From: Pleurocapsales cyanobacterium LEGE 10410
Lineage (GTDB): Bacteria; Cyanobacteriota; Cyanobacteriia; Cyanobacteriales; Xenococcaceae
Reading direction: 5' to 3'
Length of the DNA stretch: 48,637 bases
Assembly (NCBI GenBank): GCA_015207195.1
Contig: JADEXJ010000032.1
Coordinates: forward strand, 1-48,637
The translations under genes and the position numbers were made by a program. Below are positions 5,930-10,597 of the stretch, piece after piece. Below the pieces are notes generated by a model. That model saw only the letters and a program-made list of their open reading frames with translations. It was not told the origin of the DNA and did not search any database. Numbering within the stretch: the stretch's first letter is position 1; each line of letters opens with the position of its first letter.

Positions 5930-8380
5930 ATGATTATTTCTTCCCAGTGTTCCAATTTATCCAACAATGTTAACCAAATCTTAGATTTAATACAGCAAAT
6001 ACCTAAGATCGAGCAACAAAATATTTCGGCTGTTGAAGCATCTTTGGCTAAAGCGATCGCGCCCAAATTTGAAATCGTTTTTGCGGGGGCGTTTAGTGCG
6101 GGTAAATCAATGTTGATTAATGCACTATTAGAACGTGAATTGCTTTACAGTGCAGAAGGACACGCCACGGGAACGGAATGCTATATCGAATATGCTGAAC
6201 CAGAAGCCGAAAGAGTAGTGCTAACTTTTCTGAGTGAAGCAGAGATTAAACAGCAAGCCATTAATTTGTGTCAGCACTTGGAATTGTCAGCCAAAGATAA
6301 TATTAGCGAACCAGAAATAATCAATTTACTCCATCAAGCCTGTGCTGCAATTATCGAACAAGAAGGTGGAGCAAGTAAATCGGAAAGGGCAAAAAAGGCT
6401 AATGCACTAACTTTGTTGTTAAAAGGTTATGCCGAAAATCGCGATCGCCTCGATGCTAACAAAAACAACACTTATTCGATGGAGGAATTTAATTTCTCTA
6501 ATTTATCCGAAGCAGCGACTTATGCCCGACGGGGTAGCAACAGCGCAGTACTAACAAAAGTTGAATACTACTGTCATCATCCCCTATTGCAAGACGGTAA
6601 CGTACTGGTAGATATGCCAGGTATCGACGCACCAGTTAAGAGAGATGCGGAACTTACCTACAGCAAGATCGAAGATCCCGATACTTCAGCAGTTATTTGT
6701 GTCCTCAAACCCGCTTCGGCTGGAGAAATGACTTCAGAAGAAACCGAGTTGCTAGAAAAGATGAAGTCTAATCTGGGAATACGCGATCGCGTGTTCTATG
6801 TGTTTAATCGTATCGACCAAACTTGGTATAACGGACAATTGAGGCAGCGTTTGGACAGTCTGATTGAAACTCAGTTTAGAGATACCAAACGGGTATATAA
6901 AACCAGTGGCTTATTAGGATTTTATGGTAGTCAAGTTAAATCTACCAACAGCAGCGATCGCTTTGGTTTGGATTCCATATTTGCCGAAAGCGTCAAAGAA
7001 ATAGGAGGAGAAGAAGAAACACCACAATTTGTTAGCGAATTTAATAACTACTGCGCCAACTCAGGTAAACTTACTCGCACTAACTTCAGAGTATCCGTCA
7101 ATGGTTATGAAACGCCCAACGAAAACTATACTCGCATCCTCAGGGAATTTGGTACGCCGTTAATCGAACAACTGATTGCTGACAGCGGGATAGAAAAATT
7201 TCGGAGTGCAATTACTCGCTATCTAACCGAAGAAAAACGCCCTCAGTTATTTACCAACCTGGCGGAAGATTTACATCCTATTTGTAACGATCTCAAACAG
7301 CATTATTTGAAGCAGTTACAGAAGTTAGATAGTCAACCCCAAGAGATTGAGGCAATGAAAACTCAGGAGTTGACCTTACTCAACCAGAAGCTACAGGAGA
7401 TCGGCAACGAATTTTCTCAGCATCTAGAACACGAAGTTAATTCAGTAGTAACCAATCAAGATTCTGGCTTTGAATCAGACTTCCAAAAGCTTAAAGCGCA
7501 GATGGTAAGCCATCTCGATGAACTATTACAAACCTTTTCCGTAAAAGATGCCTATAGTCGCGCTACTTTGTCTCATCCCCGAAACGCAACTGCACCTTTA
7601 ATTGCCGTTCTGGTTGAAGCCTTGTATCACTTAGCTAATGAACTAGAAGTTACCTTGGTTGCAGCATCAGAAGAATTAGTAAAAAACTTCTGTCAGCGTT
7701 TGCGCGATCGCCTCAAACAACAAGAATATTATCGCAGTTTAGATCGTTTGTTAAGGGAAGATACTGGTATCCAATCACAGATCGACGAGTTAGAAACCAA
7801 ATTAATCCATGCTTTAGTTAGCGAAGCCAAAACCGAATGCGATCGCTATGTTCGAGAAAGCCCCCGCTTTTATGATGAAGGAACTTTTTCGATCTATCAA
7901 TTTCGTCAGACATTACAGCAAACTTCACAAGGTTATGACTGCGCCAGCATGGTTGAAGCTGAACCCGCGATCCGCCAGCTATTAAAGCTGGATTTTGAAC
8001 CAAAAGTTTCCACTACAATTCGCCGTAATTTTCGTCAAACAATCAACCAAACTATCAAGACACATCTGCTACCAATAGCACGACAACAAGCAGACAAAAT
8101 CTTACAGTATTATCCTCAAGCAAGGGCGGTTTTAGAACAAACTTTGGAAGAAGAAGCTATTACCAAAATTGCCCTCAATCAAAAGTTACAGCTAGAACTA
8201 AAACAACAAATAGAACTGTATAACAAGTCTGTAAATGAGTTGAATAATTGCTTGCGATCGCTTAATTTATCCGAACATTTACTACCAGTTATCGAACTCG
8301 TAGAAAAGATATCTGAACCGCTGGAAGATCACGAGAATAATCATTATCAAAATGATGTAATTGATAGTATACAAATTTAA
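5930..8380 (+). CDS. Bacterial dynamin-like GTPase
   Basis: This 816-residue protein has an N-terminal dynamin-type GTPase domain: P-loop GAFSAGKS at 53-60, switch-region threonines around GHATGTE, DMPG at 228-231 and NRID at 293-296. Residues from about 400 onward are long helices with coiled-coil character (neck/trunk). A more hydrophobic stretch near 548-575 (APLIAVLVEALYHL) could act as a membrane paddle. Family members bind membranes, remodel or protect them, and in some cases act in stress or phage defence. It lies 53 bp after the ROK gene and 127 bp before four KGK genes on the same strand. Membrane association is inferred. Confidence 0.88.
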   Translation: MIISSQCSNLSNNVNQILDLIQQIPKIEQQNISAVEASLAKAIAPKFEIVFAGAFSAGKSMLINALLERELLYSAEGHATGTECYIEYAEPEAERVVLTFLSEAEIKQQAINLCQHLELSAKDNISEPEIINLLHQACAAIIEQEGGASKSERAKKANALTLLLKGYAENRDRLDANKNNTYSMEEFNFSNLSEAATYARRGSNSAVLTKVEYYCHHPLLQDGNVLVDMPGIDAPVKRDAELTYSKIEDPDTSAVICVLKPASAGEMTSEETELLEKMKSNLGIRDRVFYVFNRIDQTWYNGQLRQRLDSLIETQFRDTKRVYKTSGLLGFYGSQVKSTNSSDRFGLDSIFAESVKEIGGEEETPQFVSEFNNYCANSGKLTRTNFRVSVNGYETPNENYTRILREFGTPLIEQLIADSGIEKFRSAITRYLTEEKRPQLFTNLAEDLHPICNDLKQHYLKQLQKLDSQPQEIEAMKTQELTLLNQKLQEIGNEFSQHLEHEVNSVVTNQDSGFESDFQKLKAQMVSHLDELLQTFSVKDAYSRATLSHPRNATAPLIAVLVEALYHLANELEVTLVAASEELVKNFCQRLRDRLKQQEYYRSLDRLLREDTGIQSQIDELETKLIHALVSEAKTECDRYVRESPRFYDEGTFSIYQFRQTLQQTSQGYDCASMVEAEPAIRQLLKLDFEPKVSTTIRRNFRQTINQTIKTHLLPIARQQADKILQYYPQARAVLEQTLEEEAITKIALNQKLQLELKQQIELYNKSVNELNNCLRSLNLSEHLLPVIELVEKISEPLEDHENNHYQNDVIDSIQI

Positions 8381-8398
8381 CTGAGGGTAAATGTCTCT

Positions 8399-8422
8399 CG
8401 CAAAGACGCAAAGACGCGAAGA
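8399..8422. repeat. Short tandem repeat CGCAAAGA x3
   Basis: Three head-to-tail 8-mers (CGCAAAGA, CGCAAAGA, CGCGAAGA) lie between the dynamin-like gene and the first KGK gene. This CGCAAAGACGC-type tract resembles dispersed intergenic repeats I know from other cyanobacterial genomes. It falls inside a 127-bp spacer, so the KGK genes may have their own transcription start. Confidence 0.7.
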
Positions 8423-8507
8423 TTACTAGGTTGAGTTGGCGACAGTTTAATCTAACAATAATTATGTTTATCGTACATCTATGTAGTTTGTCGAACAAGA
8501 AATAATC

Positions 8508-8903
8508 ATGATGAAATTCAATAATTATTTAGAGCAATGTCAAGATGATGACGTTTTATGCCATAAAACAGATTTATTCAAAGTTGGAAAAATTAAGGAC
8601 GCAATAATTACTGCATTTGCAACCGTGATACCAAATAAATTACAAGAAGAATTATCAAGACAAAAAATACATATACAACCTACAAAATTAGTTGGAGAAG
8701 GTCGTAAAAGTAGATTAACATATGACAATAATATTTGGTTTAAAGAAGGAGTAAACTTTCAAGTATTAAAAGCTGGTTCTAAAGGATGGCAGAAGGGCAA
8801 GTTAAAAATTAACCTCACTTTGGAATTTATCCCCGATGAACCAGAAGAAGAAAAATCACCTCTGGATGATGTCCGTAAAGAATTAGAGCAAAACAATTCC
8901 TAA
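8508..8903 (+). CDS. KGK-domain protein 1
   Basis: This 131-residue acidic cyanobacterial protein is first of four tandem paralogues. It contains GWQKGKLK with the KGK triplet at 96-98, a following strand LTLEFIPDEPEE and the C-terminal tail LDDVRKEL, all features of the Pfam KGK domain (function unknown). The N-terminal half begins with a short strand after DDDVL and a helix of about 25 residues; the charged central region is unlike the other copies. There is no signal peptide or transmembrane segment. Start ATGATG at 8508 or 8511. It follows the dynamin-like GTPase on the same strand. Confidence 0.75.
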   Translation: MMKFNNYLEQCQDDDVLCHKTDLFKVGKIKDAIITAFATVIPNKLQEELSRQKIHIQPTKLVGEGRKSRLTYDNNIWFKEGVNFQVLKAGSKGWQKGKLKINLTLEFIPDEPEEEKSPLDDVRKELEQNNS

Positions 8904-8908
8904 CTATA

Positions 8909-9250
8909 GTGAGATTAATTGTGAGTAAAGACTTAGAGATTTTAAACAACAATGATGTTATTTCTGTAGTAGGCATAAATAAAGCTAAATTTAACTCTGG
9001 AAATACATTTAAGATCCAGCAAATATTAGAAGAATTTCGAGAATATGCCGACAATAGTAGTCTAAATGACAGTGAACTGAAAATTTTTGACAATAGTATT
9101 GAATGCGAAGTTTTAAGACAAGACGGTGATAAAGGGTGGCGAAAGGGCAAAATCAAATTTGTCGTTCAGTTTGAACCAGACGTAGTAGAAAGTAATAAAA
9201 ATACGAATACTTTAGACGATATTCGTGAACAAATAGACACTGTAAACTAA
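8909..9250 (+). CDS. KGK-domain protein 2
   Basis: This second paralogue is 113 residues from the GTG at 8909, or 109 from the GTG at 8921, which has a weak GTGAG Shine-Dalgarno-like sequence before it. It shows the family pattern: NNDVISV near the N-terminus, a helix, then GWRKGKIKFVVQFEPD with KGK at 79-81, and the tail LDDIREQID. It starts 5-17 bp after copy 1 and is surely co-transcribed with it. Function unknown. Confidence 0.72.
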   Translation: MRLIVSKDLEILNNNDVISVVGINKAKFNSGNTFKIQQILEEFREYADNSSLNDSELKIFDNSIECEVLRQDGDKGWRKGKIKFVVQFEPDVVESNKNTNTLDDIREQIDTVN

Positions 9251-9263
9251 ACAACAATTGATT

Positions 9264-9548
9264 ATGGAAGAAACAAGTAAAAATTTTAATGGCGATGAAG
9301 TAGTTTCAATTGATAATGAAAAAGAAAATATACTAATCAATCATCGCACTTATAAAGTTAAGGATTTTTTAGAAAAGCTATCAAAAAACCTCGATTACAA
9401 CCAAGGCAAAAAATGGATATCAGAGGGAGTAGCTTGCGAAATATTATCTCCCAATCAAAGTTGGCAAAAAGGAAAAATAAAAATCTGTTTACAGTTTATT
9501 CCCGAACAGCCAGAATCGATTCTTGACGATATTAGACAAGCACACTAA
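9264..9548 (+). CDS. KGK-domain protein 3
   Basis: This shortest copy has 94 residues. I start it at the ATG at 9264 (MEETSKNF) rather than the in-frame TTG at 9258. It keeps the N-terminal GDEVVSI strand, the helix with YKVKDFLEKL, the SWQKGKIKICLQFIPEQPE core with KGK at 69-71, and the end LDDIRQAH. It lacks the central insertions of copies 1 and 4, so it may represent the minimal KGK module. It lies 13 bp after copy 2. Confidence 0.72.
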   Translation: MEETSKNFNGDEVVSIDNEKENILINHRTYKVKDFLEKLSKNLDYNQGKKWISEGVACEILSPNQSWQKGKIKICLQFIPEQPESILDDIRQAH

Positions 9549-9585
9549 TAATCGTATTATTTGTAAATTTATTGGAACTATGAAG

Positions 9586-9960
9586 ATGAATACAGAAGCA
9601 AACTTTAAACAAATAGAACATGAAAATTCTAATACAGTTGTTTCTTTTGATAATGGAGCAACATTTAAAATTAGTAAGTTTATGGAAAAGTTAAATAGCT
9701 TTTTTGTACAGTCTGTATTAAACAGTTTATCAGAACAATTAAAACAAACAGGTTTGGGAAATCCTCCAGGTTATGGTGGTACCTGGACTAAAGGCATCAA
9801 AGCTGAAATTTTAGAACCCAAATCTGTAGAATGGAAAAAAGGCAAAATAAGAATGAGAGTGATTTTAGAATTTTGCCCCGACGAACCTGAAGAAATGAAA
9901 AGCGATATTGCCCAACAAAACGGTAGTTCTTTAGATGATATTCGGCAAACTATTTCTTAA
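9586..9960 (+). CDS. KGK-domain protein 4
   Basis: This is the fourth paralogue, 124 residues from the ATG at 9586, where a TTGGAA ribosome-binding-like sequence lies about 9 bases upstream; the ATG at 9580 is also possible. An in-frame TTG at 9523 would overlap copy 3 and is less likely. It has NTVVSFDNG and FKISKFMEKL at the N-terminus, a Gly-rich insertion (GNPPGYGGTW), EWKKGKIRMRVILEFCPDEPEE with KGK at 85-87, and the tail SSLDDIRQTIS. A hairpin just downstream could end transcription. Confidence 0.72.
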   Translation: MNTEANFKQIEHENSNTVVSFDNGATFKISKFMEKLNSFFVQSVLNSLSEQLKQTGLGNPPGYGGTWTKGIKAEILEPKSVEWKKGKIRMRVILEFCPDEPEEMKSDIAQQNGSSLDDIRQTIS

Positions 9961-10048: not shown

Positions 10049-10228
10049 GCCTCACAAGGGTAGGTTTTTAACAAATGGGTGAGTAAGCACTTTAATTTAC
10101 GTATAAGAGGCGCAAATAATAGTGTCTAAATATACCCAAAAGTAACTAAACACTCTCCCCATCTCCCTATCTCCCCATCTCCCCATCACACACAACAGAC
10201 AAATGTAAAAAGTCTACCCTTGTAAGGC
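10049..10228. repeat. Nested inverted repeat inside the candidate MITE
   Basis: GCCTCACAAGGGTAG at 10049-10063 and CTACCCTTGTAAGGC at 10214-10228 are inverted copies with 14 of 15 matches, about 150 bp apart. C-rich CCCCCCTAGC flanks both arms. The interval holds CTCCCCATCTCCCTATCTCC-type short tandem repeats (about 10155-10188). This suggests one element inserted into another, or a large folded RNA. Confidence 0.6.
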
Positions 10229-10354: not shown

Positions 10355-10597
10355 ATGTCTAAAACTCCACGAATCAAGCTACCTCAAGCTGTCAGGAAAT
10401 ATGTACTGCAACGTAACAAATATCAGTGCCAAAGTTGTGGAAAAAAGAACACGGAAACGCAATTAAACATCGATCATATTGTTCCTTTGGCAAAAGGTGG
10501 CAGCAACGATATCAGTAATCTACAAGTTCTGTGTAGCCGATGTAACCAGCGTAAGAAACATCATTTTGACTCGCGTTTTCAACGTTATTATGATTGA
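10355..10597 (+). CDS. Small HNH endonuclease-domain protein
   Basis: This 80-residue protein is almost entirely an HNH module. C25/C28 and C60/C63 form the zinc site; D40-H41 in NIDHIVPLAKGG, N55 and N64 form the beta-beta-alpha-metal active site. Such nucleases nick or cut DNA or RNA and occur in introns, restriction systems and phages, and also as stand-alone cyanobacterial genes. The short basic N-terminus may bind nucleic acid. It lies 23 bp beyond the candidate MITE and on the KGK strand, but a shared transcript is unlikely across the repeats. Biological role unknown. Confidence 0.85.
   Translation: MSKTPRIKLPQAVRKYVLQRNKYQCQSCGKKNTETQLNIDHIVPLAKGGSNDISNLQVLCSRCNQRKKHHFDSRFQRYYD

Follow-up and report, generated by a model that had tools for sequence, protein, structure and literature searches.

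A SynDLP-type dynamin gene, four KGK genes and a small HNH-type gene in a Pleurocapsales cyanobacterium: evidence pointing to a conserved cassette

Four small and strongly divergent KGK-domain genes stand in a row behind a dynamin-like GTPase gene in Pleurocapsales cyanobacterium LEGE 10410, which raises the question of what they do there and with which partner. The whole stretch of 48,637 nucleotides that carries them (the window) corresponds to contig 211 of a 6.64-Mb genome in 392 contigs. We searched this genome for further KGK genes and compared the locus with 388 genomes of the class.

The four genes encode proteins of 131 aa (copy 1, 8508–8903), 113 aa (copy 2, 8909–9250, GTG start), 94 aa (copy 3, 9264–9548, ATG start) and 126 aa (copy 4, 9580–9960, ATG start). 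Scores of 108.3, 40.8, 48.0 and 106.1 bits against the Pfam KGK profile PF08872, all above its gathering cut-off of 25.6 bits, identify the four proteins as members of this family. The ATG at 9264 was preferred as start of copy 3 over the listed TTG at 9258, and the ATG at 9580 as start of copy 4 over the listed TTG at 9523, which would overlap copy 3. The elements that the earlier note described as common to the four genes are present in each of them, namely the core (WQKGKLK, WRKGKIK, WQKGKIK and WKKGKIR in copies 1 to 4), the FxP strand (EFIP, QFEP, QFIP and EFCP) and the C-terminal tail (LDDVR in copy 1, LDDIR in the other three), while the insertions it saw in copies 1 and 4 are borne out by the protein lengths. 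As it had also stated, all four genes lie on one strand, the plus strand, behind the dynamin-like gene, from which copy 1 is separated by 127 bp. Because the gaps between consecutive KGK copies measure 5, 13 and 31 bp, the four genes look like one operon. The spacer between the GTPase gene and copy 1 (8381–8507) was inspected for a terminator-like site and none was reported. A short dispersed repeat with three more partial copies in the genome is located in the same spacer (8391–8424). Apart from these four genes, no KGK match was found in the whole genome (E up to 0.001), and none of 14 named control genomes outside the cyanobacteria matched PF08872.

The upstream gene (5930–8380, plus strand) codes for an 816-aa protein that matches the Pfam profile Dynamin_N with 64.9 bits and residues 3–789 of PDB 7zw6 (Slr0869) with 1125 bits over 787 residues. 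Its extended P-loop, GAFSAGKSMLINALL, is identical to that of Slr0869, and the HPRN assembly loop aligns as SHPRN in both proteins. The two BSE cysteines that form the pair C8–C777 in SynDLP (PMC10104851) are matched in the alignment to 7zw6. At the level of sequence, the window GTPase is a clear orthologue of SynDLP/Slr0869.

A gene link between KGK and dynamin has given the 'KGK clade' of cyanobacterial dynamins its name (2018 paper PMC5827413; SynDLP structure paper PMC10104851). The dynamin-KGK link of the window is thus a rediscovery, correct but not new. The window shares with the published clade the GTPase including its P-loop, HPRN loop and BSE cysteines, and a KGK gene downstream. It differs in harboring four KGK genes in a row, as opposed to "a KGK protein" in the published description, and in a further gene behind them that encodes a small HNH-type protein (HNH80); HNH does not occur in the main texts of PMC5827413 and PMC10104851.

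To quantify the known part of the link, the surveyed genomes were searched for both families. SynDLP was detected in 121 of the 388 genomes and KGK in at least 165. Among the KGK matches listed, 96 genomes carried both, 25 SynDLP only, 69 KGK only and 198 neither, which corresponds to an odds ratio of 11 with kinship ignored. The 121 SynDLP genomes contain 123 SynDLP places; the sister species (genome G198) accounts for two of them because its SynDLP gene is split over two contigs, and several further places are broken genes. KGK was found downstream on the same strand at 81 places and was missing at 42, some of which are interrupted by the end of a contig. Of the 109 places with 2.5 kb or more of readable downstream sequence, 74 had KGK and 35 did not. 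No KGK gene was found on the opposite strand in the regions read around the 123 places; in one genome (G050) a KGK ORF overlaps the end of SynDLP and was entered as upstream. The first copy starts less than 300 bp from SynDLP at 68 of the 81 places, which span 80 genomes, 55 genera and 26 families. One copy was counted at 39 places, two at 20, three at 10, four at 7, five at 3 and seven at 2; for one of the latter (G054) seven is an upper count because some ORFs of the array are fragments. Because KGK follows SynDLP on the same strand at 81 of the 123 places, far above chance, a lack of enrichment beside dynamin-like genes can be dismissed. The association proposed in the earlier note is upheld, and its notion of a membrane GTPase with variable small partners appears plausible.

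Comparison with the sister species provided information on the age of the copies. The GTPases of both genomes are 82–89% identical, whereas copies 2 and 3 of the window reach only 54% and 62% identity with their counterparts. In the tree, copies 2, 3 and 4 pair one-to-one with copies 1, 2 and 3 of the sister species (SH-aLRT 97, 99 and 100), and copy 1 has no counterpart among its three KGK genes; deep branches are poorly supported. Among 119 members of 38 arrays, 98 had their best match outside and 21 inside their own array; the numbers changed to 87 and 32 when other genomes of the same genus were ignored. KGK arrays are mostly groups of ancient, rapidly diverging paralogues, to which local duplication has added to some extent. 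Of the tandem duplication with fast divergence that the earlier note had suggested, the fast divergence stood, while a recent duplication did not hold for this locus.

We clustered the genes neighboring SynDLP, and one other gene recurred widely at a fixed place, in 58 of the 123 SynDLP regions, always downstream and on the same strand. In the window this third type of gene lies at 10355–10597 (plus strand), and the earlier note had left it unlinked to the locus. It encodes HNH80, a stand-alone protein of 80 aa that matches HNH_5 (PF14279) with 78.4 bits. The spacer between copy 4 and HNH80 is 394 bp long and contains a MITE-like element (10049–10228, roughly 180 bp) whose 25-nt inverted ends are 84% complementary. 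Positions 10051–10227 of this element have a 98% identical copy on contig 254 of the same genome, in addition to an 85% partial copy and many partial matches.

The features of HNH80 point to a functional enzyme. Among 112 sequences, counted where the residue is present and given as the protein's own numbering plus one, the zinc cysteines C26, C29 and C61 are conserved in 100% and C64 in 98%, D41, H42 and N56 in 99% and N65 in 100%. We take the D-H, N and N positions to be the active-site positions of a Cas9/McrA-type HNH nuclease. The mean column identity in an alignment of 49 sequences was 67%. The predicted structure (pLDDT 84.8) matched EcoKMcrA in Foldseek (E 9.6e-5, probability 1.00), and further fold matches comprised CBASS Cap5, Cas9 HNH domains and the Gme nicking HNH (4h9d). 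With these proteins HNH80 shares the zinc cysteines, the DH, N and N positions and the fold. In contrast to them, it comprises just 80 aa, carries no sensor or targeting domain and has a dynamin as genomic partner. Residue conservation and the structural model together suggest that HNH80 is likely an active nuclease.

In regions containing both KGK and HNH80, the distance from the last KGK gene to HNH80 was between -32 and +70 bp in 31 of 49 cases. For the collection of HNH80 places, at most 14 candidates per genome were scored, so that the counts based on it are lower bounds where a genome is rich in HNH genes. Altogether, at least 112 HNH80 places in 110 genomes were recorded; KGK lies less than 600 bp upstream at 64 of them and within 3 kb at 72, on the same strand in 72 of 72 cases. 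HNH80 is linked to KGK and SynDLP at 61 places, to KGK only at 11, to SynDLP only at 10 and to neither at 30. In genome G091, where KGK was not matched, one of the 30 unlinked HNH80 genes directly follows a broken SynDLP remnant (L185:2558-3391). A second set of 80 SynDLP loci from GTDB-220, at least five contigs of which are common to the first set, gave a similar order: KGK follows SynDLP in 41 and HNH in 37, and HNH was found elsewhere in the locus in none. When the 65 loci with 3 kb or more of downstream sequence are considered, KGK was present in 33, HNH in 34, both in 29 and neither in 27. In the sister species, no HNH80 was called behind SynDLP and its three KGK genes, and only weak HNH relatives were found elsewhere.

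At the genome level (72-bit threshold), HNH80 was present in at least 107 of the 388 genomes. SynDLP and HNH80 occurred together in 96 genomes, SynDLP alone in 25, HNH80 alone in 11 and neither in 256 (odds ratio 89, kinship ignored). Counted by genus with an HNH80 profile built for this analysis and a threshold of 99 bits, the corresponding numbers were 51, 14, 5 and 89 of 159 genera (odds ratio 65, kinship ignored). Among the matches listed, 25 of the 121 SynDLP genomes are without KGK and likewise 25 without HNH80. The HNH partner and its co-occurrence with SynDLP are new in that they were not found in the literature searched.

These numbers bear on the simplest reading of the published clade, in which KGK serves SynDLP alone by regulating the GTPase or its assembly at thylakoids, while HNH80 is a conserved neighbor with no common role. 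The clade itself (PMC5827413, PMC10104851) fits such a reading, as does the KGK tail described below, which persists in SynDLP genomes devoid of HNH80. HNH80 nevertheless follows SynDLP even where the genes are apart: 21 of the 30 unlinked HNH80 places, 11 of them in one genus, are in SynDLP genomes, compared to SynDLP in 121 of 388 genomes overall. Counts restricted to KGK-positive genomes, meant to remove lineages lacking everything, gave HNH80 in 81 of 96 listed genomes with SynDLP versus 5 of 69 that lack it; the numbers for the order of the window were 41 of 49 versus 3 of 13, kinship again being ignored. Moreover, HNH80 is also paired with KGK away from SynDLP. Taken together, a role of KGK for SynDLP alone seems rather doubtful.

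The gene order allows a second reading, in which KGK proteins are antitoxin-like inhibitors of the HNH nuclease and SynDLP is a mere neighbor. Antitoxin genes often precede toxin genes, and KGK directly precedes HNH80, whose start overlaps the KGK stop as ATGA (gap -1) in 5 of 49 cases. The charges would match as well, with pI values of 4.7–6.7 for the window KGK proteins versus 10.0 for HNH80. In addition, SynDLP is not in place at the 11 KGK-HNH80 pairs mentioned above. Four of these are true separations (G266, a near-complete genome, G271, G225 and G342), two represent the same locus divided by contig ends (G124 and G068), and others stem from incomplete genomes without a SynDLP match (G260, G291 and G330, the last one twice). 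A toxin, however, should never be found without its antitoxin. A simple antitoxin role for KGK appears unlikely because at least 21 of the 107 HNH80 genomes are without KGK among the matches listed, and HNH80 is evidently tolerated there. Furthermore, HNH80 tracks SynDLP more tightly than KGK (odds ratios of 89 versus 10 in the 388 genomes). Overall, we consider this second reading very improbable.

One KGK protein was examined by structure prediction. The AlphaFold2 model of copy 1 (mean pLDDT 93.3; 108 of 131 residues at 90 or above) displays a compact mixed core, a less certain linker and a separate C-terminal helix (residues 120–129) that corresponds to the LDDVR tail. Fold comparison of this model gave no informative match. 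Mean column identity in an alignment of 91 KGK sequences was 20%, as compared to the 67% of HNH80. The tail was counted in KGK ORFs of 80–299 aa in the loci fetched, which are a part of all KGK genes. Genomes that contain SynDLP, HNH80 or both contributed 186 KGK proteins, of which 141 had the strict tail motif and 160 the relaxed one; among 26 KGK proteins of genomes lacking both genes, the strict motif was present in 1 and the relaxed motif likewise in 1. The 26 proteins are a part of those encoded in 64 such genomes and mostly represent one KGK lineage, and kinship was ignored. Among other small genes, the relaxed motif occurred in 25 of 591. Split by genome class, it was found in 141 of 161 KGK proteins from genomes with both SynDLP and HNH80, in 16 of 22 from genomes with SynDLP only and in 3 of 3 from genomes with HNH80 only. 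PF08872 members in SynDLP or HNH80 genomes thus mostly carry the LDDIR tail, whereas the examined members from genomes with neither gene lack it with one exception. This distribution is new with respect to the literature searched. From it, the tail would seem to be a plug that fits some component of the module, and SynDLP is slightly favored as its partner because the tail persists without HNH80.

Several other KGK arrangements were observed in the course of the survey. A second, SynDLP-independent KGK family (loci L213, L224, L229 and similar ones) has the core WQRG[RK]VRIRLEF and, in place of LDDIR, an extended charged tail whose last residues are frequently DDEY or a similar sequence. Proteins of about 500–570 aa near KGK arrays (L067:4938-6635, L069:6646-8148, L071:7211-8911 and L075:4255-5940) consist of several degenerate KGK-like units (W-x-x-G-x-L); in scans of those from L067, L069 and L071, KGK alone exceeded a Pfam cut-off. 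One KGK gene (L392:3971-4408) resides on the mobilizable Nostoc plasmid pNPM6, where it adjoins an integrase gene and is two genes away from a PIN-domain gene.

A dynamin next to a putative nuclease calls to mind a chromosomal anti-phage module, in which SynDLP would protect or seal membranes, the KGK copies would act as variable sensors and HNH80 would cut DNA. The best fold matches of the HNH80 model include the defence DNases EcoKMcrA, CBASS Cap5 and Cas9 HNH, and KGK proteins diverge fast and vary in copy number. Phage lysis is reported to be delayed by a Bacillus dynamin (PMC8844932), and SynDLP is dispensable in Synechocystis under standard growth conditions (PMC10104851). Unlike typical mobile defence genes, however, 94 of 103 SynDLP and 82 of 100 HNH80 genes had their best match within the same family, suggesting largely vertical inheritance of both. 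Against a defence role, too, SynDLP matched none of 72,556 plasmid records (E 1e-60), and KGK copy 1 matched two plasmids and none of 50,697 phage records. PADLOC profiles, evaluated by raw bit score, matched the GTPase weakly (39 bits for LeoBC, and 28 bits), did not match KGK and gave low scores for HNH80 in many HNH-bearing families (best 36 bits). The window GTPase shares the dynamin GTPase domain with LeoABC and DynA-type defence dynamins but differs from them in these weak profile matches and in its gene context. Finally, visual inspection of the 25 recurring neighbor clusters listed revealed no recognisable defence gene. We therefore regard the anti-phage module as improbable.

Published expression data from Synechocystis point to joint regulation. 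In Table 1 of PMC4759255, the lexA mutant/wild type ratios at OD 0.5 and 1.0 were 7.95 and 6.67 for slr0869, 6.28 and 7.48 for slr0870, and 8.01 and 11.53 for slr0871. The same table lists slr0868, raised 16.14-fold at OD 0.5, and ssr1473 at 6.89. By locus-tag order and the joint 6- to 12-fold rise of slr0869–slr0871 in this table, SynDLP is co-expressed with its neighbors, of which slr0870 and slr0871 are presumably KGK genes. The rise in the lexA mutant may reflect direct or indirect control. A search with a cyanobacterial LexA-box pattern gave no match upstream of any of the 123 SynDLP genes.

The account best supported by all these data, which we put forward tentatively and rate slightly below an even chance, combines a dynamin, KGK adaptors and a small nuclease in one module that is regulated by stress and passed on mainly by vertical descent. 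The four KGK genes would be part of a cyanobacterial cassette in the order SynDLP, a variable number of KGK genes and HNH80. SynDLP would act as membrane-remodelling GTPase. Each KGK protein would be a small adaptor in physical contact with its partner, having a compact core with a surface that varies among the copies and a flexible acidic linker that joins this core to the short common C-terminal helix (LDDIR). The helix would dock on a module-wide partner, for which SynDLP oligomers are the most probable candidate and HNH80 is a less probable one. HNH80 would be a compact McrA/Cas9-type nuclease of the same pathway, and the module would thereby link the remodelling of membranes with a step involving DNA when cells are stressed.

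This proposal can be extended to an unrecognised three-part machine of SynDLP, diversified KGK adaptors and HNH80, in which a dynamin of the thylakoid or plasma membrane is coupled to a DNA nuclease, the variable KGK cores are responsible for recognition and the LDDIR helix provides the plug common to all copies. Such a machine, possibly a bacterial counterpart of the antiviral Mx dynamins, is a speculation that we think unlikely to be correct.

The co-occurrence of a nuclease-type gene with SynDLP in 51 genera provides a concrete lead beyond membrane biology, and the LDDIR tail is a precise site for removal or mutation. Together, HNH80 and the LDDIR tail make the statement that "the function of the KGK domain is enigmatic" open to binding and deletion tests.
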